DNA of 35,193 nt from a virus. Each line of letters opens with the position of its first letter. Position 1 is the first letter of the stretch. Below the pieces are notes generated by a model. The model made no database searches. It worked only from the letters and a program-made list of their open reading frames with translations, and was not told the DNA's origin. The stretch lies in the IMG/VR virus record IMGVR_UViG_3300048831_000083, positions 1 to 35,193 of that record. One strand, written 5' to 3'. This document shows positions 17,582 to 35,156 of this stretch, piece by piece. The translations under genes and the position numbers were made by a program.

Positions 17582-17848
17582 ATGTGGCCATGCCAGGTAA
17601 ACATCACCGACGCTGCGACCGGTGGAAAGCTGCACAGCACCGTCTACTTCTCCCCAGACATTGAGTTTGACCCGGTGGCAGGACGACTGAGCATCTCTGA
17701 GGGGACCAAGACCGAGGAGTTTGCCCGGGTCAAGCTGCACTCCATCGACAACGTCGGTGTCACGCTCTCGGCCCTGGTGCCACCGATGTCAGGTCACGGC
17801 TTTGCCCCTGATGAGGTCTATGTCAGGCTCGACTGGACCATCGAATGA
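17582..17848 (+). CDS. Hypothetical late protein
   Basis: An 88-aa protein with AAGGAG before the ATG and a late octamer upstream. It is predicted to be all beta (MWPCQVNITDAATGG, TVYFSPDIEFDP). Coupled to the amidinotransferase gene by a 4-base overlap. Confidence 0.65.
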   Translation: MWPCQVNITDAATGGKLHSTVYFSPDIEFDPVAGRLSISEGTKTEEFARVKLHSIDNVGVTLSALVPPMSGHGFAPDEVYVRLDWTIE

Positions 17849-18684
17849 AGAAGATCTTCCTCTGCCCACCGTGGAAGTTCGACGTCAGCTACTCCATCAA
17901 CCCATGGATGGAGGGCAACCTTCACAACGTTGACCACTTGCTGGCCGTCTCACAGTGGAGCGAGCTGCACTGCGCGCTCCGTGACAGTGACGCCGAGGTG
18001 ATCTGCGTTGACACACCGCCTGACAACTGCCCTGACGCGGTGTTCATCGCCAACGCGGGCCTGCTCTACAGGGGCAGCTTCGTGCCAAGCCGGTTCAAGT
18101 TCGAGGAGCGAGGCGCGGAGGAGCCCTTCTTCAAGCGAGTGTTCTCAGGCTACACGCTGCGCGACCTCGTGCCCGCGGAGTCACGCGAGCACTTCTCATT
18201 TGAGGGCGCCGGCGACGCGCTGTTCGACCGGCACCGCAACAACATGTGGCTGGGCTTCGGCTTCCGGACGGCGCTTGGCTACAAGCCCATCCTTGAGCAG
18301 GCGCTTGAGGACATCCAGCCAGAGGAGACGCCAACCGTTCGACCGCTCCAGCTGGTTGACCCGCGCTTCTATCACCTCGACACGTGCTTCTGCCCCCTCG
18401 ACACAGGTCAGCTGCTGTGGTTCCCTGAGGCGTTCGCCGAGCACTCGCGCTACGTCATCGACCTCTGGTACGGAAGCAACGGCATCACGGTCAGCGAGGA
18501 GGACGCGCTCAACTTCGCCTGCAACGCGATCTCGATTGGGCGACGCGTCATCATGCCGCTCACGTCCAAGTACCTGCGAGATGACCTCGCCAGGTTTGGG
18601 CTTGACGTGGTGCAGGTTGACATGAGCCAGTTCAAGCGCTCGGGTGGCGCGTGCAAGTGCCTATCGCTTGAAGAGGTTGAATAA
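17845..18684 (+). CDS. Amidinotransferase / DDAH-like protein
   Basis: A 279-aa protein with the pentein-fold guanidino-enzyme layout: NPWMEGN at 19-25, PDAVFIANAG at 63-72, FEGAGDALF at 119-127, FYHLDTCF with H177, and SGGACKCLSL with candidate nucleophile Cys270 or Cys272. Members hydrolyse or transfer amidino groups of arginine derivatives (arginine deiminase, DDAH, amidinotransferase). Which reaction this one performs is not readable. Cytoplasmic. It is read from the late site at 17549 and its stop overlaps the late octamer in front of the tmRNA. Confidence 0.8.
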   Translation: MKKIFLCPPWKFDVSYSINPWMEGNLHNVDHLLAVSQWSELHCALRDSDAEVICVDTPPDNCPDAVFIANAGLLYRGSFVPSRFKFEERGAEEPFFKRVFSGYTLRDLVPAESREHFSFEGAGDALFDRHRNNMWLGFGFRTALGYKPILEQALEDIQPEETPTVRPLQLVDPRFYHLDTCFCPLDTGQLLWFPEAFAEHSRYVIDLWYGSNGITVSEEDALNFACNAISIGRRVIMPLTSKYLRDDLARFGLDVVQVDMSQFKRSGGACKCLSLEEVE

Positions 18685-18687
18685 ATA
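18680..18687 (+). promoter_or_regulatory. Late promoter-like octamer in front of the tmRNA
   Basis: AATAAATA overlapping the preceding stop codon. By T4 spacing, transcription would begin near 18693, at the start of the tmRNA acceptor piece. Confidence 0.6.
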
Positions 18688-18692
18688 ACGTT

Positions 18693-18990
18693 GTAGGATT
18701 GCCGTAACTCGGCTTGATTGGATCTGTTCTGGACGCGGGTTCGATTCCCGCCGTCTCCACCAAAGCGCGCTGGGCGCCTTGGGCGTTAAGAGCCAGATTG
18801 TACTGGACACTCTAGCGCGCTTCGGTGGGGACGACCTGGCTTCGACAGGGCATGTGAAGAGAAGGACGCGGCACGAGAGTCGACCGACGTAATCGGCGAA
18901 AAACCACAAATGCAAACGATGCATTTTTCGGAGAAACGCGCCTAGCGGCGTAGTCTTCGCGCGGTTGATCACCGTGTCAAGGAACGATCA
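18693..18990 (+). ncRNA. ssrA: Circularly permuted tmRNA
   Basis: The acceptor part comes first: T-arm GCGGG-TTCGATT-CCCGC at 18735-18751, then CGTCTCC, A and CCA ending at 18762. A 64-base spacer follows, held by AAGCGCGC (18763-18770) pairing with GCGCGCTT (18815-18822). The 5' part then begins GGGGACG at 18827. GGGGACG pairs with CGTCTCC over 7 bp, including the G3-U70 pair that directs alanine charging, and is followed by CTTCGAC, the tmRNA D-region. The resume codon GCA at 18912 opens a tag reading ANDAFFGETRLAA and ending at TAG 18951-18953. P2 can form between AGGGCA (after TTCGAC) and TGTTCT (before the T-arm). Outer ends are approximate. No smpB gene is seen here. Confidence 0.9.
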
Positions 18991-19545
18991 GAACGGTGAA
19001 GGAATGAAAATTTCCTTCACCGTTCCATTTATATCTCGTAATTTTACCAACCACTCTCCGTTGGACTGCGGATACGCCCACGTTCTTGTTCCTTCATACT
19101 CAATCATTTTCCTACCAGCAGTCGTTGCACTTAGTTTTTTAGCAGACTTTCTGGCATTGTCTGCAGACTTTTCATTTGGAATTCCCTTGTTCCATGCTGG
19201 ACGTCCTCTCAACGCCTTTTTCAACACCTCACTTGGTCCAGTTTTCTTGCCCTTATTCCAAGGCTTATGACCCTTTGGCTTTCCTGCCTTGATGTTGTAG
19301 TAGCGAACACCAAATTCATCAGGCTTAATCATTTTGAGAATTCGGTACTCTTGCTTTCTAAGCTGAGTAACAGGGACCTGTGCAAGGATCCTGCGCCTAA
19401 AATCTTTCGGTCGAAAACGCAATTCACCGTTTAACCACGATGATGAAGAAGTGTAAATATCAGTGGCAGTTCCAACGTGCGAGCCAATGTAGTACATGTT
19501 TCTGAGTCTATCACGCCAAATATAGATGATTCCGAAATGTGTCAT
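18988..19545 (-). CDS. GIY-YIG homing endonuclease with NUMOD-like repeats
   Basis: A 185-aa protein; the N-terminal IIYIWRDRLRNMYYIGSHVG contains the IYI...YIG core of GIY-YIG nucleases. The middle carries two copies of a NUMOD3-type motif (HKPWNKGKKTGPSEVLKKAL and RPAWNKGIPNEKS), which bind DNA. It converges on the tmRNA and its 3' end overlaps the tmRNA end region. Base composition is clearly more AT-rich than the neighbours, a sign of recent transfer. A perfect late octamer lies 28 bases upstream. Its cleavage site is probably nearby, in the gene or tmRNA it sits next to in endonuclease-free relatives. Confidence 0.9.
   Translation of the reverse strand: MTHFGIIYIWRDRLRNMYYIGSHVGTATDIYTSSSSWLNGELRFRPKDFRRRILAQVPVTQLRKQEYRILKMIKPDEFGVRYYNIKAGKPKGHKPWNKGKKTGPSEVLKKALRGRPAWNKGIPNEKSADNARKSAKKLSATTAGRKMIEYEGTRTWAYPQSNGEWLVKLRDINGTVKEIFIPSPF
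18991..19025. terminator. Perfect 14-bp hairpin at the tmRNA/endonuclease junction
   Basis: GAACGGTGAAGGAA pairs perfectly with TTCCTTCACCGTTC across a 7-base loop. There is no T-run on either side, so it may act as a processing or stability element rather than an intrinsic terminator. It lies within the last codons of the endonuclease gene and just after the tmRNA. Confidence 0.5.
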
Positions 19546-22331: not shown

Positions 22332-23411
22332 ATGGCACGCAAGGACCTGACAGTATTCATTGGCCGTTTCTCCCCGTTCCACAACGGGCACGCCGCCGTT
22401 CTTGAGCGAGCGCTGCAGACCAGCAAGGTCGTCCTCGTTCTCGTCGGCTCCGCGGGCGACGCGCCGACCATCAAGAACCCGTTCTCGTACCAGTTCCGCT
22501 CCGACCTGATCTGGAGCTGGCGGAAGACCCTCGGTCAGGGCAAGTACGGCAAGCTGCGCATCAGCTCGCTGCCTGACACCCCCTACAATGACCAGCTCTG
22601 GACGCGCGACGTGCAGGTCGAGGTTGAGGCCGCCAAGAACGCGTTCGTCGATGAGCTTGGCCTAAACCCGACCATCCACCTCACCGGTGCCAAGCGCGAC
22701 GCGAGCGGCTGGTACCTCGACGTCTTCCCCACCTGGCAGAAGGACTTCTTCCAGGACGCTGAGCACGACTTCTCCCTGTCCGCCTCCAAGGTGCGCGACA
22801 TCCTCTTCACCTCCAGCGACCACGCCGACGTCGCCTCGCGCGTCGGGTCCCTGGTACCTGGCGTGACGCTTGACGCGCTTCGAGAGTTCCGGACCCAGCC
22901 GCTGTTCGAGCAGCTGCGGCGCGAGCACCACTTCATTGAGAGCTACAAGATGCGGTGGCAGGCGGCGCCCTACGCGCCCACGTTCACCACCGTCGACGCC
23001 GTCGTCGTGCAGGCCGGTCACGTCCTGCTGATCGAGCGTCGCGCCGAACCTGGCAAGGGGCTGTGGGCCCTGCCTGGTGGCTTTGTCAACCAGAGCGAGC
23101 GGCTGCAGGCCGCCGTCCTCCGAGAGCTGCGCGAGGAGACGCGCCTGAAGGTGCCGGAGCCGGTGCTGAAGGGCAGCATCAAGAGCAAGGAAACGTTTGA
23201 CCACCCCGACCGCTCGCTGCGCGGCCGCACCATCACCACTGCGTTCCTCATCCAGCTCGCTGAGACGGGTGAGCTGCCGACGGTGAAGGGTGGAGATGAC
23301 GCCGCGAAGGCCTTCTGGGTCCCGATCGCGGAGGCCATGGCGAAGCGTGACCAGTTCTTTGAAGACCACTACTCAATCATTCAGACGATGATTGGTCGGC
23401 TTGACGTTTAA
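22332..23411 (+). CDS. natV: Bifunctional NMN adenylyltransferase / Nudix hydrolase
   Basis: A 359-aa fusion. Residues 1-185 form a nucleotidylyltransferase: FIGRFSPFHNGH at 9-20 with the HxGH motif, GDAPTIKNPFSYQFR, and SLSASKVRDIL at 148-158. Residues 215-359 form a Nudix domain whose box begins GGFVNQSERLQAA and ends LRELREETRL (249-272). In the family the first domain makes NAD from NMN and ATP and the second hydrolyses ADP-ribose-type substrates. KVP40-like phages have the same fusion. With the nicotinamide phosphoribosyltransferase at 27305 it forms a two-step nicotinamide-to-NAD route. Preceded by AGGAGC. The 3' end overlaps the convergent GIY-YIG gene by 35 bases. Confidence 0.92.
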   Translation: MARKDLTVFIGRFSPFHNGHAAVLERALQTSKVVLVLVGSAGDAPTIKNPFSYQFRSDLIWSWRKTLGQGKYGKLRISSLPDTPYNDQLWTRDVQVEVEAAKNAFVDELGLNPTIHLTGAKRDASGWYLDVFPTWQKDFFQDAEHDFSLSASKVRDILFTSSDHADVASRVGSLVPGVTLDALREFRTQPLFEQLRREHHFIESYKMRWQAAPYAPTFTTVDAVVVQAGHVLLIERRAEPGKGLWALPGGFVNQSERLQAAVLRELREETRLKVPEPVLKGSIKSKETFDHPDRSLRGRTITTAFLIQLAETGELPTVKGGDDAAKAFWVPIAEAMAKRDQFFEDHYSIIQTMIGRLDV

Positions 23412-23919
23412 CGTGACACTTTTCAAAATGCCAAAGATGCATCGGTCCCAATTTTCCACTCTTCTTACAGTGGGGACAGGTTACCACTTTATTAGCAAGC
23501 ACTTGCATCACGCGCTTTCCAGTCTTAGAAACGGCAAGTCTAACTTCATCAGTTACACTATGCCCCTTGAGTTTTTCAGCCACCTTCTTGTTACGCTCGA
23601 GAGTATGTTTCTTGCCGGTAAACCCCAAGGATGCTCTTCCTCCAGGAGAGATATTGTAAAAGTCGCGGCTCTTAACAGCATCGAACTCTTCAATCAATTG
23701 TTTCTCTGCCCAAATGAGATCTTGAAACGAAAAGGCCTCGAAAAGAATCTCTCGACAGAAATTGTTAGCTCCATATTTCGCAATGGCACGTTTAATTGCT
23801 TTACCAGATCCAAGGTAGGTTTCGATAATTCTATGACGCCTACCATAGGAACACATGCCGATGTATCTTTTTCCATTGACCAAATTTTTGGTCATGTAGA
23901 CGAATCCGTAAGGTCTCAT
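23377..23919 (-). CDS. GIY-YIG homing endonuclease (Seg-like)
   Basis: A 180-aa protein with FVYMTKNLVNGKRYIGMCSYG (GIY-YIG core) and YLGSGKAIKRAIAKYG in the N-terminal 60 residues, a FYNISPGG block, a NUMOD-like GFTGKKHTLE helix, and a C-terminal zinc finger (CPHCKKSG...HFEKCH). It is AT-rich compared with the neighbours. A late octamer lies 20 bases upstream. Its last codons overlap the end of the NMN adenylyltransferase gene, so insertion reshaped one gene's 3' end. Confidence 0.9.
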   Translation of the reverse strand: MRPYGFVYMTKNLVNGKRYIGMCSYGRRHRIIETYLGSGKAIKRAIAKYGANNFCREILFEAFSFQDLIWAEKQLIEEFDAVKSRDFYNISPGGRASLGFTGKKHTLERNKKVAEKLKGHSVTDEVRLAVSKTGKRVMQVLANKVVTCPHCKKSGKLGPMHLWHFEKCHVKRQADQSSSE

Positions 23920-25601: not shown

Positions 25602-26870
25602 ATGAGAAAGGCGTTCGTCGTCATCGGCGCCGGCTTCGGTGATGAGGGAAAGGGCCTCATCACCGACTACCTCGCGCGTCAGGTCGCCAACCCGCTCGTC
25701 GTCCGCTTCAACGGCGGCGGGCAGGCCGGCCACACCGTGGTTGACGGTGAGCGGCACCACATCTTCGGGCACGTCGGCGCGGGCTCCTTTGCCGGGGCCA
25801 GCACCTACCTGTCCAAGAACTTCATCGTGAACCCGCTGCTGGCCGAGCGGGAGCTGCGGGCTCTCTGGGACAAGGGCGTGAGGCGGTCCTACGTGGATGT
25901 CCACCCTGAGGCCCAGGTTACCACCATCTACGACATGGCCATCAACACGCTCGTTGAGCTGGCGCGCGGCAACAACCGCCACGGCTCGTGCGGGCTGGGC
26001 ATCAACGAGACGGTGACCCGCGGTGAGAAGGTCGGGCGCCTGACGGTCGGCGCGCTGCAGGTGATGTCAGACGCGCGCCTCCATGAGGTCCTCAAGGCGA
26101 TCGCCGAGGTCTGGGTGCCGCAGCGCCTGGCGCAGTTCAACCTGTTCAATGGCGACGTGAAGGCCGCGCAGCGGTCGTGCCAGTTCATCGAGGTCCTCAC
26201 CGACCACCGCTACCACCACCACGCCGAGGCGCTGCGGCGGGCCACCGTTGAGTGGTGCTACGTGGGCGTTCCTGCGCTCACCAACGAGTCCATCATCATG
26301 GAAGGTGCGCAGGGGCTGCGCCTCGACGAGTTCCTCGGGAAGTTCCCCCACGTGACGCGCTCTGTGACAGGCCTACCATACGCCTGGCAGGCAGCGGCGG
26401 AGCTTGACGTCACGGAGCTGCAGCCCATCTACGTGACGCGCTGCTACACGACCCGTCACGGCGCTGGACCACTGCCGTACGAGGGTGAGTTCATCACTGA
26501 CCGCGACCTGTGGGACACGACGAACGTCTTCAACCCGTGGCAGGGTCAGCTGCGCTACGCGCCGCTCGACGTTGACGCGCTGAATGAGTTCATCGACAGG
26601 GACCTCGAGCGCTCGCACAACACGCGAAAGCCGCTGCTGGCGGTGACCTGCCTCGATCAACTTGGCGGTGGTGTCAGGGTCATCGTCAACCGCAAGCACC
26701 ACCTGGTGCAGACCGCAGGTGACCTGGTGGCGCTGCTTGAGCGTGAGGTCAACCTGAAGGTCGCCCTCACAAGCTTTGGCCCCTCGGCGCAGGACGTCCG
26801 GCCAACCTCAGATTTCTTTTCCACGCTGAGGTGGTATAATACTTCAGAGACTGAAGGACTAGCCAAATGA
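25602..26870 (+). CDS. purA: Adenylosuccinate synthetase
   Basis: A 422-aa protein. GAGFGDEGKG at 9-18 is the GTP/IMP-site loop with the catalytic Asp14; NGGGQAGHTVV matches the GGxNAGHT block; IIMEGAQGLRLDEF and FPHVTRS match the EGAQGxxLD and FPxVT(S/R)S blocks; YTTRHGAGPLP matches the C-terminal loop. It joins IMP and aspartate with GTP hydrolysis, the first step from IMP to AMP. The phage PurZ enzymes for diaminopurine DNA replace that catalytic Asp, and here it is kept, so I favour PurA. The gene contains the promoter for the next one near its end. Confidence 0.9.
   Translation: MRKAFVVIGAGFGDEGKGLITDYLARQVANPLVVRFNGGGQAGHTVVDGERHHIFGHVGAGSFAGASTYLSKNFIVNPLLAERELRALWDKGVRRSYVDVHPEAQVTTIYDMAINTLVELARGNNRHGSCGLGINETVTRGEKVGRLTVGALQVMSDARLHEVLKAIAEVWVPQRLAQFNLFNGDVKAAQRSCQFIEVLTDHRYHHHAEALRRATVEWCYVGVPALTNESIIMEGAQGLRLDEFLGKFPHVTRSVTGLPYAWQAAAELDVTELQPIYVTRCYTTRHGAGPLPYEGEFITDRDLWDTTNVFNPWQGQLRYAPLDVDALNEFIDRDLERSHNTRKPLLAVTCLDQLGGGVRVIVNRKHHLVQTAGDLVALLEREVNLKVALTSFGPSAQDVRPTSDFFSTLRWYNTSETEGLAK
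26813..26840 (+). promoter_or_regulatory. Sigma70-like promoter inside the end of purA
   Basis: TATAAT at 26835-26840 in GTGGTATAAT, with TTTCTT at 26813-26818 as a weak -35 at 16 bases. It would drive the gene at 26867. Confidence 0.5.
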
Positions 26871-27255: not shown

Positions 27256-27280
27256 GGTGACCGAGAGACGGTCACCTTTT
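27256..27280 (+). terminator. Rho-independent terminator
   Basis: GGTGACCG pairs with CGGTCACC across AGAGA, followed by TTTT. It lies 25 bases before the NadV start, so NadV is either read through or has a promoter I do not see. Confidence 0.7.
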
Positions 27281-27304
27281 CAACAAACTGAAAGGAGCTT
27301 TCAG

Positions 27305-28687
27305 ATGACAACGCTAAAAACCAACCTCATTCTTCAGACGGACTCGTACAAGCTCTCCCACGCGGGAGCGTACCCGAAGGACGTCAAGGGCATGTTCTCC
27401 TACATCGAGGCGCGCAGCAAGGGCGACACCATCGTCCCCTTCGGCCTGCAGATGTGGATCAAGAAGACACTCACCACCCCCATCACGACCGCTGACATCG
27501 ACGAGGCCGAGGCATTCGCCCAGGCCCACGGCGAGCCGTTCAGCCGCGCAGGCTGGGAGAAGGTCATCTCGCAGTACGGCGGCCTGCTTCCCATCAAGAT
27601 CCGCGCCGTCCCTGAAGGCACGCGGGTGCCGAGCGGCAACATCATCGTGTCGATCGAGTGCACCGACCCCGACCTGTTCTGGCTCTCCTCGTACCTCGAG
27701 ACGAGCCTGCAGCGCGGAGTGTGGTACCCGACGACCATCGCCTCCAATGACTACAAGGCGTGGCGCGTGATCCGCCGCTACGCCGCCGAGTCGAGCGACG
27801 ACCTGTCGCTCGTCCCCTTCACGCTGCATGACTTTGGCGGGCGCGGCGTCTCCAGCGCCGAGAGCGCTGAGGTCGGTGGCGCCGCCCACCTGGTCTACTT
27901 CATGGGCAGCGACACCATCGAGGGCGTGCGCGCGGCCAACTTCTACTACAACAGCAAGATGGCGGCGTTCAGCGTGCCGGCGGCCGAGCACAGCATCCAG
28001 TGCTCGTACGGCCCGGTCGGCCAGCGCGACTACCTCGAGAAGATGCTTGACACGTACGCCAAACCTGGCGCGATCGTGTCGATCGTCATCGACGGCTACG
28101 ACGTGTACCGTGAGGCGCAGGAGCTCTGCTCGCTGAAGGACAAGATCGTCGCCAGCGGCGCCCGCATCGTGTTCCGCCCGGACAGCGGCGACGCGCTCGA
28201 GGTTATCCCGCGCCTGCTCAAGCTGCAGGAAATGGCCTTCGGCTCGAAGCTTAACAGCAAGGGCTACAAGGTGATCAACAACGTCGGCATCATCCAGGGC
28301 GACGGCATCGACCTCGAGTCGATGACGGCAATCCTCGACAAGATCACCGGCATGGGCTACAGCGCCAGCAACATCGTGTTCGGCAGCGGCGGTGCCCTCC
28401 TGCAGAAGGTCAACCGCGACACGTTCAAGTTCGCGCAGAAGGCCTCCGCGATCCTGCGCAACGGGAAGTGGCACGACATCTACAAGGACCCGGTGACGGA
28501 CCCTGGCAAGAAGTCCAAGGCCGGCCGCCTGTCACTGTTCAGGTCAGTTCACACTGACGAGCTGATGACGCTGCCGGTCGGCGGTGGCTCAGCTGACTGG
28601 CAGGACGTCATGCTCACCGTGTACGAGAACGGCGAGCTGCTCAACGAGCAGACGCTCGATGAGATCCGCGCGCGAGCGCAGGCATAG
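27305..28687 (+). CDS. nadV: Nicotinamide phosphoribosyltransferase
   Basis: A 460-aa protein (human NAMPT is 491). It opens ILQTDSYKLSHAGAYP like NAMPT, and has GGRGVSSAESAEVGGAAHLV, PAAEHSIQCSYG (the AAEHS block holds the catalytic histidine) and FRPDSGD, which binds the phosphoribosyl group. It makes NMN from nicotinamide and PRPP in the cytoplasm. The ATG at 27305 follows AAAGGAGC. With the NMN adenylyltransferase at 22332 it completes a nicotinamide-to-NAD salvage route (the arrangement called NARP2 in recent phage-defence work). Confidence 0.95.
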   Translation: MTTLKTNLILQTDSYKLSHAGAYPKDVKGMFSYIEARSKGDTIVPFGLQMWIKKTLTTPITTADIDEAEAFAQAHGEPFSRAGWEKVISQYGGLLPIKIRAVPEGTRVPSGNIIVSIECTDPDLFWLSSYLETSLQRGVWYPTTIASNDYKAWRVIRRYAAESSDDLSLVPFTLHDFGGRGVSSAESAEVGGAAHLVYFMGSDTIEGVRAANFYYNSKMAAFSVPAAEHSIQCSYGPVGQRDYLEKMLDTYAKPGAIVSIVIDGYDVYREAQELCSLKDKIVASGARIVFRPDSGDALEVIPRLLKLQEMAFGSKLNSKGYKVINNVGIIQGDGIDLESMTAILDKITGMGYSASNIVFGSGGALLQKVNRDTFKFAQKASAILRNGKWHDIYKDPVTDPGKKSKAGRLSLFRSVHTDELMTLPVGGGSADWQDVMLTVYENGELLNEQTLDEIRARAQA

Positions 28688-32512: not shown

Positions 32513-33142
32513 ATGGAAAAATACTTCATTCTGTATAAGACCACTAACAAGGTGAATGGCCGATTCTATATCGGGATTCATGTTACATCTAAAGTGGAAG
32601 ATGGTTATCTCGGATCTGGTCGGCGGCTGAGGGCGGAGATCAAGAAGTATGGCAAGGAAAACTTTGAAAGAACCATACTTGAATTTTGTAATTCGACGCA
32701 AGAACTTAAAATTCGTGAACAGCAAATTGTAACAGCTAATTTGCGAAAAGACCCGCTCAATCTCAATCTTAAAAATGGCGGTGAAGGTGGCTGGGAATAT
32801 GTAAATTCTTCAGGTGCCAATATCCGAAATGATTTTGCGAGAGATGCTGCGTATCGTGAGAAAATGAGCGTGAGCAAGAGGGGGACGGTTCTATCCGAAC
32901 ATGCCAGGCAGAACATATCAGCGGCACACTGGTCAAAGAAAAACCCTGAGCAGCACAGCCAGCACATGAGAAAAATTGCTGGCCAGACCAAAAGCGAAGA
33001 ACATAAGAAGAAAATCGCTGCAGCTCTTCGTGGTAGAACATTCGCGTTTGAATTAGTCATATGCCCTCACTGCGGAAAGAGTGGTGGTAAGAATGCAATG
33101 CTCAGGTACCATTTTGATAAATGCAAAGCGGTCGTCGTATAG
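32513..33142 (+). CDS. GIY-YIG homing endonuclease overlapping tRNA-Gly
   Basis: A 209-aa protein with YFILYKTTNKVNGRFYIGIHV (GIY-YIG core), YLGSGRRLRAEIKKYG, NLNLKNGGEGG and a C-terminal CPHCGKSG...HFDKCK zinc finger. AT-rich. The stop and last five codons are the first bases of the tRNA-Gly(GCC) at 33128. No ribosome site stands between the late octamer and the ATG, so translation may be leaderless. It is a close relative in layout of the GIY-YIG gene at 33434. Confidence 0.9.
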   Translation: MEKYFILYKTTNKVNGRFYIGIHVTSKVEDGYLGSGRRLRAEIKKYGKENFERTILEFCNSTQELKIREQQIVTANLRKDPLNLNLKNGGEGGWEYVNSSGANIRNDFARDAAYREKMSVSKRGTVLSEHARQNISAAHWSKKNPEQHSQHMRKIAGQTKSEEHKKKIAAALRGRTFAFELVICPHCGKSGGKNAMLRYHFDKCKAVVV

Positions 33143-33204
33143 CCTGGTTATTATCCCTGCTTGCCATGCAGGGGACAGCGGTTCAAATCCGCTCGGCCGC
33201 TCCA
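33128..33204 (+). tRNA. tRNA-Gly(GCC)
   Basis: GCGGTCG/CGGCCGC acceptor (one T-G pair), anticodon arm CCTGC-TTGCCAT-GCAGG, T-arm AGCGG-TTCAAAT-CCGCT, discriminator T and encoded CCA. The D-stem is weak. The first 15 bases overlap the end of the GIY-YIG gene. Confidence 0.85.
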
Positions 33205-33212
33205 GACAATTT

Positions 33213-33298
33213 GCGGGTGTAGCCTAGAGGTCAGGCACTGGTCTTCCAAACCGGCAGACGAAAGTCGCACGCAGGTTCGAATCCTGTCACCCGCTCCA
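33213..33298 (+). tRNA. tRNA-Gly(TCC) with a long variable arm
   Basis: GCGGGTG/CACCCGC acceptor, D-arm GCCT/AGGC, anticodon arm CTGGT-CTTCCAA-ACCGG, T-arm GCAGG-TTCGAAT-CCTGT, TCCA end. The variable region is 16 bases with a GAC-GAAA-GTC hairpin, unlike glycine tRNAs, which have short variable loops. Confidence 0.85.
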
Positions 33299-33306
33299 CA
33301 CAACTT

Positions 33307-33378
33307 GGGCTTGTAGTATAGGGGGAATTATACTGCGCTTGCACCGCGGAGATCAGGGTTCGAGTCCCTGCAGGTCCA
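33307..33378 (+). tRNA. tRNA-Ala(TGC)
   Basis: GGGCTTG pairs with CAGGTCC, including the G3-U70 identity pair for alanine; anticodon arm CTGCG-CTTGCAC-CGCGG; T-arm CAGGG-TTCGAGT-CCCTG; discriminator A. The CCA is not encoded directly after it (CACCA follows). Confidence 0.85.
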
Positions 33379-33404
33379 CACCAGGCATCTTTGTACTACC
33401 TTCT

Positions 33405-33412
33405 AATAAATA
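33405..33412 (+). promoter_or_regulatory. Late promoter-like octamer
   Basis: AATAAATA, 21 bases upstream of the GIY-YIG gene at 33434. Confidence 0.65.
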
Positions 33413-33433
33413 CGTGCAAAGAGGAAAGCAAAG

Positions 33434-34057
33434 ATGCCCCGCAAGCAGACGAAGTACCACTTCATCTACAAGACGACGTGCGTCGTCACTGGTCGATTTT
33501 ACGTTGGGATGCACTCGACGGACGATCTGCAAGATGGCTACCTTGGAAGTGGGAAAGTTCTGGGTTACTCTCGCCGCAAGCACGGCGATGAGAACCACAC
33601 ACTGGAGATTCTCGAGATGTGCGGCTCGAGAGAATTATTAAAAGTTCGTGAGAGAGAAATCGTGAATGAGGAGCTGCTGTCGAACCCGCTGAACATGAAT
33701 CTGAAGTACGGCGGCGATGGTGGTGGTAAATTTTGGTCTGAAGAGCACCAGCGCAAGTGCGCATCTGCTGGTGGAAGAGTTGGTGGAAAGACTGCTGGCA
33801 AGCTGAATGGAGCGCAGAATTACTTGAGTGCGAGAGAACGAGGAACCTCTAAGCTGTCGTGCCTCGCATTTTCTGGTAAAAAGCACAGCACTGAGTCTCG
33901 AAGAAGAATCAGTAGTTCGATGCTTGGCAAGCAGGACGCGAAGAAAAATTCACAGTTTGGTACGTGTTGGGTAACCAATGGTGTTATCACGAAAAAGATA
34001 AAGGCCACAGCGCTTGATGCCCATCTACGAGAGGGTTTTAGACGCGGTCGAAAGTAA
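33434..34057 (+). CDS. GIY-YIG homing endonuclease (Seg-like)
   Basis: A 207-aa protein with HFIYKTTCVVTGRFYVGMH (GIY-YIG core), YLGSGKVLGYSRRKHG, NMNLKYGGDGG, and a NUMOD-like AFSGKKHSTESRRRIS helix followed by a FGTCWVTNG end, as in SegC-type enzymes. AGAGGAA precedes the ATG. Its 5' fifth is richer in GC than the rest. It ends 2 bases before tRNA-Leu(TAG), so it sits between tRNA-Ala and tRNA-Leu. Confidence 0.9.
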   Translation: MPRKQTKYHFIYKTTCVVTGRFYVGMHSTDDLQDGYLGSGKVLGYSRRKHGDENHTLEILEMCGSRELLKVREREIVNEELLSNPLNMNLKYGGDGGGKFWSEEHQRKCASAGGRVGGKTAGKLNGAQNYLSARERGTSKLSCLAFSGKKHSTESRRRISSSMLGKQDAKKNSQFGTCWVTNGVITKKIKATALDAHLREGFRRGRK

Positions 34058-34059
34058 TT

Positions 34060-34136
34060 GCCCCGGTGACGGAACTGGCATACGTGTTGGTCTTAGAAGC
34101 CAAATTTTAGGGGTTCGAATCCCCTCTGGGGCACCA
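34060..34136 (+). tRNA. tRNA-Leu(TAG) with a short variable loop
   Basis: GCCCCGG/CTGGGGC acceptor with one G-T, D-arm ACG...CGT, anticodon arm TTGGT-CTTAGAA-GCCAA, T-arm AGGGG-TTCGAAT-CCCCT, ACCA. The variable region is only ATTTT, whereas bacterial leucine tRNAs have a long arm. Confidence 0.85.
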
Positions 34137-34235
34137 CAGGCGCGTGCAGCACGGATACGGAGCATCAGATCCTTCGTCGCAATGCCGTGAGCCTCGCAGG
34201 GTTCAACACGTAGCGAATACCCTCAACGCACAGAA
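34137..34235 (+). other. Spacer with foldable RNA
   Basis: No gene. CACGG/CCGTG and AGGGT/ACCCT can pair. Probably structured spacer or decayed tRNA. Confidence 0.3.
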
Positions 34236-34375
34236 TTAGCAACCGAAAGGTGATGATTATCATTGGAAACCGGTACATTGGGGGTTCGAGTCCCTCCTCC
34301 AGCAATGGAGTGGCGAAACGGTAAACGCGCTGGTCGATCGCCGAAAGGCAATTCGTCGCCATCATTTGTTGCTAA
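34236..34375 (+). ncRNA. Circularly permuted tRNA-like RNA
   Basis: In order: TTAGCAAC and TGATG; ACCGG (34269-34273); a 6-base variable region; T-arm GGGGG-TTCGAGT-CCCTC (34280-34296); CTCCA; a GCAA loop; TGGAG (34306-34310); TG; D-arm GCG-AAACGGTAAA-CGC (34313-34328); G; CTGGT (34330-34334); a GCC-GAAA-GGC hairpin; CATCA (34360-34364); GTTGCTAA (34368-34375). CTCCA pairs with TGGAG as an acceptor stem closed by a GNRA loop, ACCGG pairs with CTGGT as the anticodon stem, and TGATG/CATCA and TTAGCAAC/GTTGCTAA extend it. The 3' half thus precedes the 5' half. No CCA and no 7-bp acceptor are available. Confidence 0.6.
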
Positions 34376-34469
34376 CTTTTCAGATCTTGTCACCCTACCC
34401 AAGGGGTTCGAGAGAGTGGTTGGAAGCATCTCGACAAGTGGCTTATATGCCCGTGACAGGGTCAGCGAT
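34376..34469 (+). other. Spacer with foldable RNA
   Basis: No gene. CTTGTC/GACAAG can close a small branched fold containing ACCC-AA-GGGGT and CGAGA/TCTCG. A GGTTCGAGA resembles a T-loop but the stem does not pair. Confidence 0.3.
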
Positions 34470-34593
34470 TTAGTAGTGGTGGAACTGGCAGACCAGACGG
34501 GCTTGTGCGGACCCTTAAACCGCTGTGGGCGAAGGCCCTGAACCTGTTGGAATTACACGAAAGTGACTGTGGGTTCGAGTCCCACCTACTAAT
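34470..34593 (+). tRNA. Leu/Gln-like tRNA gene with a 34-base anticodon-loop insert
   Basis: TTAGTAG/CTACTAA acceptor, leucine-like D-arm (TGGTGGAACTGGCAGACCA), stem ACGGG/CCTGT, a 21-base variable region with CAC-GAAA-GTG, T-arm GTGGG-TTCGAGT-CCCAC; discriminator T, no CCA. The loop between the anticodon strands is 41 bases and folds into GCGG/CCGC and GGGC-GAAG-GCCC hairpins. Cutting out 34 bases after base 34 leaves CTTTGAA (UUG, Gln), which conflicts with the leucine-like body; identity is unresolved. Confidence 0.5.
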
Positions 34594-34595
34594 TT

Positions 34596-34673
34596 CAGGG
34601 TGTATTGTCAATCTGGTAGACGGCCTGCTTTGGAGGCAGGAGGCTGCAGGTTCAAATCCTGCCGCCCTGACCA
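34596..34673 (+). tRNA. tRNA-Pro(TGG)
   Basis: CAGGGTG/CGCCCTG acceptor with the C1-G72 pair typical of proline tRNAs, anticodon arm CCTGC-TTTGGAG-GCAGG, T-arm GCAGG-TTCAAAT-CCTGC, ACCA. Confidence 0.9.
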
Positions 34674-34692
34674 CATCACATAGGAGATAACC

Positions 34693-34890
34693 GTGACAAT
34701 TGAGCTTGACAGCGAGGTAGCGGACCGCATCTGCGCGGCGACCGTCTCAGAGCACATCGACATGGTGAAGGCCAACATCAAGGCCCTCAGGAAGATCAGG
34801 AAGCGCCTCCCGCACCAGGAGGAAGATCTCGAGAACAACATCGTGCTGCTTGACGCGCTTGAGCGCGTAAGCAGGTACTTTGGTGGGTAA
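34693..34890 (+). CDS. Small hypothetical protein between tRNA genes
   Basis: A 65-aa protein with a GTG start and TAGGAGA upstream. Predicted to be two helices (VKANIKALRKIRKRLPHQEEDLENNIVLLDALERV). It is GC-rich like the core genome, unlike the endonucleases. Family not recognised. Confidence 0.65.
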   Translation: MTIELDSEVADRICAATVSEHIDMVKANIKALRKIRKRLPHQEEDLENNIVLLDALERVSRYFGG

Positions 34891-34897
34891 AGACTAC

Positions 34898-34981
34898 AGC
34901 GGGTGAGTGGAACGGACAGTTACAAACCATACGTGTCTCATAAGCACGTGATACTAGGTTCGACTCCTAGACCCGCAACCA
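34898..34981 (+). tRNA. tRNA-Met(CAT)-type, unusual first pair and long D-loop
   Basis: Acceptor AGCGGGT/ACCCGCA with an A1-A72 mismatch, D-stem GTGG/CCAT with a 16-base loop, anticodon arm CGTGT-CTCATAA-GCACG, T-arm CTAGG-TTCGACT-CCTAG, ACCA. A 1-72 mismatch is the mark of initiator tRNA, but the anticodon stem lacks the three G-C pairs. It could also be a lysidine-modified Ile tRNA. Confidence 0.8.
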
Positions 34982-34986
34982 GACAT

Positions 34987-35073
34987 GCACTCGTGGCGTA
35001 ATTGGTAGCCGCGCTAGCTTGAGGTGCTAGTGGCCGAAAGGCTGTGGAGGTTCGAGTCCTCTCGAGTGCACCA
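34987..35073 (+). tRNA. tRNA-Leu(GAG)
   Basis: GCACTCG/CGAGTGC acceptor, leucine-type D-arm, anticodon arm CTAGC-TTGAGGT-GCTAG, long variable arm (GCC-GAAA-GGC), T-arm GGAGG-TTCGAGT-CCTCT, ACCA. A fully normal leucine tRNA. Confidence 0.92.
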
Positions 35074-35079
35074 GAATTT

Positions 35080-35156
35080 CAGGGCGTAGCTCAGCTGGGG
35101 AGAGCGCCGCGTTCGGGACGCGGAGGCCGGAGGTTCAATCCCTCTCGCCCTGACCA
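35080..35156 (+). tRNA. tRNA-Pro(CGG)
   Basis: CAGGGCG/CGCCCTG acceptor with C1-G72, D-arm GCTC...GAGC, anticodon arm CCGCG-TTCGGGA-CGCGG, T-arm GGAGG-TTCAATC-CCTCT, ACCA. Confidence 0.92.

Follow-up and report, generated by a model that had tools for sequence, protein, structure and literature searches.

A stretch of viral DNA that we refer to as the window (a virus record of IMG/VR, 35,193 bases long and probably a fragment) contains, on its plus strand, an RNA gene with the features of tmRNA, which frees stalled ribosomes and marks the incomplete proteins on them for degradation. Its presence raises the question of whether the virus carries a working tmRNA of its own and, if so, how the gene and the peptide tag that it encodes came to be there, such tags being commonly regarded as a trait of the host lineage. 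Here, we describe an analysis of this gene, of its relatives in viruses and bacteria, and of its tag. The segment from 18700 to about 19026 is very probably a complete and functional phage ssrA gene, circularly permuted and of the beta type. This reading draws on the ARAGORN and Rfam calls, the higher score of the beta model over the alpha model, covariation in the acceptor stem, the retained LAA end, searches for the tag, the capsid gene Gp23, the related locus L188, and a search for SmpB.

Architecture of the gene and its locus

ARAGORN called a circularly permuted tmRNA on the plus strand of the window, with the tag ANDAFFGETRLAA. Two Rfam models matched over their full length, tmRNA_permuted (RF04321) at 18700-18953 (136.7 bits, E 6.1e-27, model positions 1-213 of 213, cut-off 47) and beta_tmRNA (RF01850) at 18654-19027 (130 bits, E 1.4e-39, model positions 1-331 of 331, cut-off 84). 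The latter was the best-scoring group-specific model; alpha_tmRNA (RF01849) reached 60 bits over part of its length, at positions 40-240 only. Given the E-values of beta_tmRNA and tmRNA_permuted and the independent ARAGORN call, the tmRNA signal is far beyond chance. The same Rfam comparison identified no riboswitch in the window.

The acceptor piece (18700-18762, 5' end approximate), delimited by sequence reading, ARAGORN and Rfam, holds the 3' half of helix H2, the T-arm GCGGG-TTCGATT-CCCGC (18735-18751), the 3' strand of the acceptor stem CGTCTCC (18752-18758), and A73 with an encoded CCA (18759-18762). It is followed by a 64-nt intervening segment (18763-18826) that is predicted to form a strong hairpin, AAGCGCGCT...AGCGCGCTT (-28.6 kcal/mol). 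The coding piece comes next, and its portion before the tag (18827-18911, from the same three sources) comprises the acceptor 5' strand GGGGACG (18827-18833), the D-region TTCGAC (18841-18846) and the other half of H2. The tag module (18912-18953) reads GCA AAC GAT GCA TTT TTC GGA GAA ACG CGC CTA GCG GCG TAG, with codons at 18912-18950 that begin with the Ala resume codon GCA and end in a C-terminal LAA, and the stop codon at 18951-18953. The 3' part of the coding piece and a terminal hairpin (18954-19026, from Rfam and the predicted fold) complete the gene; the stem of this hairpin is predicted to pair 18991-19004 with 19012-19025 (-23.7 kcal/mol). The gene order is permuted in that the 3' acceptor half (18752-18762) precedes the 5' half (18827-18833). 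All seven acceptor pairs form (GGGGACG/CGTCTCC), and the 7-bp stem, its G3-U70 pair and A73 together provide the alanine identity elements. The predicted precursor fold of 18748-18850 (-56.4 kcal/mol) has the spacer hairpin stacked onto the acceptor stem.

An initial annotation of this DNA had proposed a circularly permuted tmRNA whose acceptor end lies upstream of its 5' end, and had named the 7-bp stem with G3-U70, the T-arm, TTCGAC, CCA, the spacer stem-loop and a 13-residue tag; ARAGORN and an Rfam comparison of the kind that it had suggested as a check agree on the gene, and each of these elements can be read in the sequence. Its comparison of the RLAA ending to rhizobial-type tags is not supported. 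Tags ending in RLAA do exist in alphaproteobacteria, such as ANDNYAEARLAA in L246 and ANDNVDMGAVRLAA in Microvirga, but we rejected a rhizobial origin on the beta-type model scores, on the T-arm (GGTTCGATTCC in the window RNA, GGGGGCAGTACCC instead in the alpha examples L246 and L253), and on the virus-only family to which the tag belongs.

Upstream of the tmRNA lies a gene resembling dimethylarginine dimethylaminohydrolase (17845-18684, plus strand), which has three relatives in IMG/VR (L187, L188 and L189) and marks a locus conserved in L188 and L189. In L188, the closest relative, where the upstream gene is 52% identical, a permuted tmRNA lies between the same neighbours as in the window. 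The two tmRNAs group on a scaffold tree (support 0.963) and have the stretch CACGAGAGTCGACCGACGTAATCGGCGAAAAAC in common; despite this similar scaffold, the L188 tag, ANEANFLMAA, is unlike that of the window. L189 has the neighbours and no tmRNA at the locus, and L187 is too short to judge. Since L188 has the tmRNA and L189 lacks it between like neighbours, the window tmRNA reads as an accessory gene at a fixed place, one whose tag has apparently changed within the lineage.

On the 3' side, a free-standing homing endonuclease gene (18988-19545, minus strand, phrog_314), presumably of the GIY-YIG type, abuts the tmRNA, and the terminal hairpin overlaps the end of this convergent gene. The endonuclease gene is a neighbour rather than a part of the tmRNA; it is missing at the same place in L188, and its kilobase has a GC content of 51%, against about 61% around it. 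Four ORFs of the window (18988-19545, 23377-23919, 32513-33142 and 33434-34057) are homing endonucleases that we take, from their sequences, to be of this type. All four have a T4-late-like motif (TATAAATA, at most one mismatch) within about 30 nt upstream, and three abut RNA genes, namely the 3' end of the tmRNA, tRNA-Gly at 33128 and tRNA-Leu at 34060. Seven tRNA genes (two Gly, one Ala, two Leu and two Pro) occupy 33128-35156, a region of about 50% GC in which endonuclease ORFs are interspersed.

The initial annotation also placed the tmRNA under a late promoter. The window does contain more T4-late-like motifs than expected (13 against 1.6), but the tentative promoter for the tmRNA is a single 8-mer, AATAAATA (18680-18687, plus strand), which differs from the consensus TATAAATA at one position and runs into the stop codon of the preceding ORF. 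Among viral relatives, a motif with at most one mismatch occurs upstream of the tmRNA in 35 of 129, where about 12 are expected; with so modest an enrichment, we dropped the late promoter as a general trait of viral tmRNAs.

Several other genes of the window were noted. A cytidylyltransferase-like/Nudix fusion (22332-23411) and a nicotinamide phosphoribosyltransferase (27257-28687) possibly form a two-gene NAD salvage pathway, perhaps directed against NAD-depleting defences. An adenylosuccinate synthetase homologue (25602-26870) has as its sole PHROG match phrog_1211, a family of phage adenylosuccinate synthetases linked to modified adenine, and a modified-base genome is possible. A 190-residue ORF (974-1546) matches just one portion, the Pol III finger domain (phrog_11778), of a DNA polymerase of bacterial type and is a putative split or partial polymerase.

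Permuted tmRNAs in other phages and in bacteria

Permuted tmRNAs were gathered from isolate phages, from bacteria and from IMG/VR, where a structural pattern gave 76 contigs and a tag pattern 90. Comparison of 107 distinct viral sequences shows that pairs 4, 5 and 6 of the acceptor stem switch type on both strands together with pairing kept, as in L020 and L087, where both strands differ and pairing is intact (CAGCTCC/GGGGCTG and CTGGTCC/GGGCCAG). Because the extraction script demanded at least six of the seven acceptor pairs, the near-100% pairing figure is biased; the covariation in pair type is still informative, since a filter on pairing does not explain a change of pair type. The G3-U70 pair is kept in 106 of these 107 sequences. 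LAA ends 118 of the 134 viral tags tallied, indicating that the protease signal is kept. A T4-type capsid gene (Gp23) scored above the cut-off in nine of 20 virus records, seven of them with the virus tag described below, and the capsids of two tag carriers were closest to those of Melnitz, DLP_6, Mosig and cyanophages, at 63-66% identity. The presence of Gp23 in tag-carrying records indicates that the carriers are viruses, T4-like ones included.

The initial annotation assigned permuted tmRNAs to alphaproteobacteria, cyanobacteria and some betaproteobacteria, which is correct, but they have also been published from phages, and the kind is therefore known. Two-piece molecules account for 53 of 133 distinct phage tmRNA structures, and the Methylophilales phage Melnitz carries one with a glutamine riboswitch (PMC9004378). 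Like the window, Melnitz has a complete permuted ssrA on a T4-like phage, with a spacer between the acceptor and coding pieces and a match to RF04321. On our re-reading, the Melnitz tmRNA is of the alpha type (alpha_tmRNA, 106.7 bits), with the tag ANDNYVPVDYALAA and the glutamine riboswitch downstream, whereas the window RNA is of the beta type and has a tag of another class and no riboswitch found. Betaproteobacterial two-piece tmRNAs (RF01850) resemble the window RNA in gene order, H2, T-arm and TTCGAC, but the bacterial beta examples have mostly 10-residue tags (ANDESYALAA, ANDERFALAA), in contrast to the 13 residues of the window's virus-only family. Mycobacteriophage tmRNAs, which are known in the standard one-piece form, are likewise phage-encoded. 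Those described come from the Bxz1 group, Wildcat and DS6A (PMC4131195), and the DS6A molecule, unlike the window RNA, has no tag.

Among isolate phages, we found permuted tmRNAs in Stenotrophomonas phages DLP_6 and Bhz51, with Moby and Mendera added by DNA match; in Pseudomonas phages UF_RH6, PaMx31 and PA_L9; in Xanthomonas phages Rb1 and XacN1; and in Acinetobacter phage BUCT628, Alcaligenes phage QDWS595, Bordetella phage PHB04 and Synechococcus phage BUCT-ZZ01. All of those checked with Rfam are permuted, and the beta model is above its cut-off in all except Rb1 and PHB04, which match RF04321 only. Their tags (for example ANDDSFAPMAIAA, ANDTSFDVRLAA and ANDDNFRPALRLAA) differ from that of the window, and no member of its tag family was seen among them. 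The predicted beta-type permuted tmRNAs of Pseudomonas, Stenotrophomonas, Xanthomonas, Acinetobacter and Synechococcus phages are new here. Pseudomonas, Stenotrophomonas, Xanthomonas and Acinetobacter are bacteria known for one-piece tmRNA. In the deposited records of DLP_6, Rb1, PHB04 and BUCT628 (L080, L081, L083 and L084), the permuted tmRNAs are unannotated.

In bacteria, permuted beta-type tmRNA occurs in Advenella, Chitinasiproducens and others. Advenella (G003) is among the genomes showing the permuted gene only, and three genomes, Herbaspirillum G001, G159 and G180, have both a permuted and a standard tmRNA, the permuted copy of G180 being alpha-like. The permuted tags of Herbaspirillum L175 (from G001) and L180 end in AYGT (ANDSQFLAYGT and ANEPQFVAYGT). 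These odd tags, and the standard tmRNA present alongside in the L175 genome, fit the idea that the Herbaspirillum permuted genes may be degraded mobile copies or prophage remnants. Of 200 genomes from the order to which G001 belongs, 150 match the permuted model at E<=0.001 and nine pass the cut-off; matches below the cut-off were not accepted as permuted tmRNAs, and G099, one of the nine, was rejected on inspection as a standard tmRNA.

The tag family and its exchange

A small group resembling the window tag was first seen among the ARAGORN tags of the 76 contigs. The 13-residue window tag fits the form ANDA[FY][FY]G[DE]xRLAA, and the corresponding search pattern, GCNAAYGAYGCNTWYTWYGGNGANNNNMGNYTNGCNGCNTAR, recovered 90 IMG/VR contigs from more than 40 metagenome identifiers. 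With the window counted, 91 stretches match, and ARAGORN finds a tmRNA in 77 of them; most of the others show TTCGAC or a T-arm where it would be expected, or run off the end of their contig. The exact tag of the window is present in 11 of the 91, the window counted. The pattern had no exact match in 84,980 prokaryote species (one genome each), a collection in which the permuted-tmRNA pattern does match 10 bacteria, and with up to two mismatches it had none in a sample of 369 genomes from the class that includes G001, in 196 of which a canonical-tag pattern matches. The family was defined from viral examples, so its richness in viruses is expected and the bacterial zero is the informative part. 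Thus, the window tag fits a pattern that the cellular genomes searched do not contain. Among isolate phages, 20-residue queries gave no match to the family. A control query with another phage tag recovered its six records, every match exact, so diverged copies of the tag could escape such queries.

The tag also appears to move separately from the rest of the molecule. L010 and L020, with the tags ANDETFALAA and ANDAFYGEDRLAA, are 98-100% identical over about 300 nt upstream of the tag. Identity falls to about 50% in a block of about 50 nt that holds the tag and returns to 98% for roughly 50-90 nt downstream; the genes on either side keep their order and are 89-91% identical. The tag DNA of L010 is one base off that of a bacterial genome (G437, in the 369-genome sample). 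Similar switches separate L044 and L076 from the virus-tag carrier L020, L023 and L037 from the carrier L135, and L038 and L067 from the carrier L047, and in these the sequence after the tag differs too. On the scaffold tree, computed from about 165 columns with the tag excluded and with many nodes weak, at least 17 tag-class changes are resolved, eight at support of at least 0.9, five at 0.95 and one at 0.99; the alpha sequences in this tree needed a different D-region pattern. Related viruses thus appear to replace the tag as a block of about 50 nt, in exchanges between the virus tag and a bacterial-type 10-residue tag, and recombination would be the simplest reading of this switching. The tag family and its exchange appear to be new in the literature searched, which included few subscription journals.

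That the tag differences between near-identical tmRNAs are instead an artefact of chimeric assembly is very improbable. Metagenome assemblies can fuse related strains, and L010 is a single contig, but independent contigs repeat the exchange in the three further comparisons above, and the well-supported tag-class changes on the tree number at least eight at 0.9 and at least five at 0.95.

Proposed function and competing explanations

We propose that the window tmRNA gene is transcribed as a single precursor, in which host RNase P would cut where the coding piece begins and other host RNases would trim the acceptor 3' end. Removal of the 64-nt hairpin spacer would leave two RNAs joined by the acceptor stem and H2. 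The CCA end would be charged by host AlaRS through G3-U70, and host SmpB would load the charged molecule onto stalled ribosomes, where translation would resume at GCA so that the stalled chain gains Ala and ANDAFFGETRLAA. The most likely partners are thus the SmpB, AlaRS and RNase P of the host. SmpB was found in none of 20 virus records, the window record included, and in 10 of 14 control genomes; as the window record is 35 kb and probably a fragment, a phage SmpB may lie elsewhere in its genome. Transcription, processing, charging, the use of host SmpB and the degradation of tagged proteins are all inferred from the sequence. The role that we favour is the recycling of ribosomes and the clearing of stalled chains during infection, while mRNA is being broken up.

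The tag would retain its C-terminal LAA for ClpX, with its middle swapped for virus-only sequence, and its handling by host adaptors would differ from that of the host's own tag. With the exact SspB and ClpA residues taken as they are generally given for E. coli, the segment of the E. coli tag containing them is replaced in the window tag, and the Ala before LAA is Arg. Both sites lie within the E. coli tag AANDENYALAA (PMC9382460). This replacement and the Arg are what would be expected if the tag were a poor degron, such that ribosomes are freed and the tagged protein is spared or redirected, for example by loss of SspB or ClpA recognition. We consider this unlikely, given that the ClpX signal LAA is present in 118 of 134 viral tags and that RLAA also ends some alphaproteobacterial tags, which are presumably degraded. 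It is improbable, too, that the RNA is an inhibitor or decoy that binds SmpB and blocks host trans-translation, as has been proposed for the tag-less tmRNA of DS6A. A phage molecule with little beyond a tRNA-like domain does inhibit host tmRNA when expressed (PMC4131195, PMC11915505), and with no phage SmpB in the 20 records the RNA would take up SmpB of the host; yet the full frame, comprising the resume codon, the stop and the C-terminal LAA, is kept across viruses, and a decoy needs none of these.

A recent capture of host ssrA, in which the phage took up the permuted tmRNA of its host and the gene has undergone no virus-specific evolution, has as little to recommend it as a decoy. Phages do acquire host genes, and beta-type permuted tmRNA occurs in bacteria such as Advenella and Chitinasiproducens. 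However, the tag family is absent from all bacterial species searched, a diverged relative (with the upstream gene 52% identical) has a tmRNA of related scaffold at the same locus, and the viral forms are spread over phages of hosts known for one-piece tmRNA. A complete and functional phage ssrA therefore remains the preferred reading. We raise more tentatively, and with some doubt, a broader one, that phages own a tmRNA lineage whose degron cassette is theirs alone, can be exchanged and reroutes stalled proteins to the advantage of the phage, and that the sporadic beta-type permuted copies of bacteria may partly derive from this viral pool; altered recognition by host adaptors or proteases would then be the reason why the tag is kept and swapped among T4-like viruses. 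The scaffold tree gives no direction of transfer between viruses and bacteria and is too weak to establish descent of the bacterial beta-type genes from viruses.

These comparisons suggest that a permuted tmRNA in a phage need not mirror the tmRNA form of its host, and the form of the gene alone would then be a poor guide to the host of a phage. They also open a direct question, namely whether a phage tag alters what becomes of stalled proteins, and by which protease or adaptor it is read. A tag family that turns up in dozens of virus contigs and in none of the bacterial genomes searched, and that is swapped as a unit between conserved flanks, suggests that phages adjust tagging in their own right, beyond the copying of a host gene.
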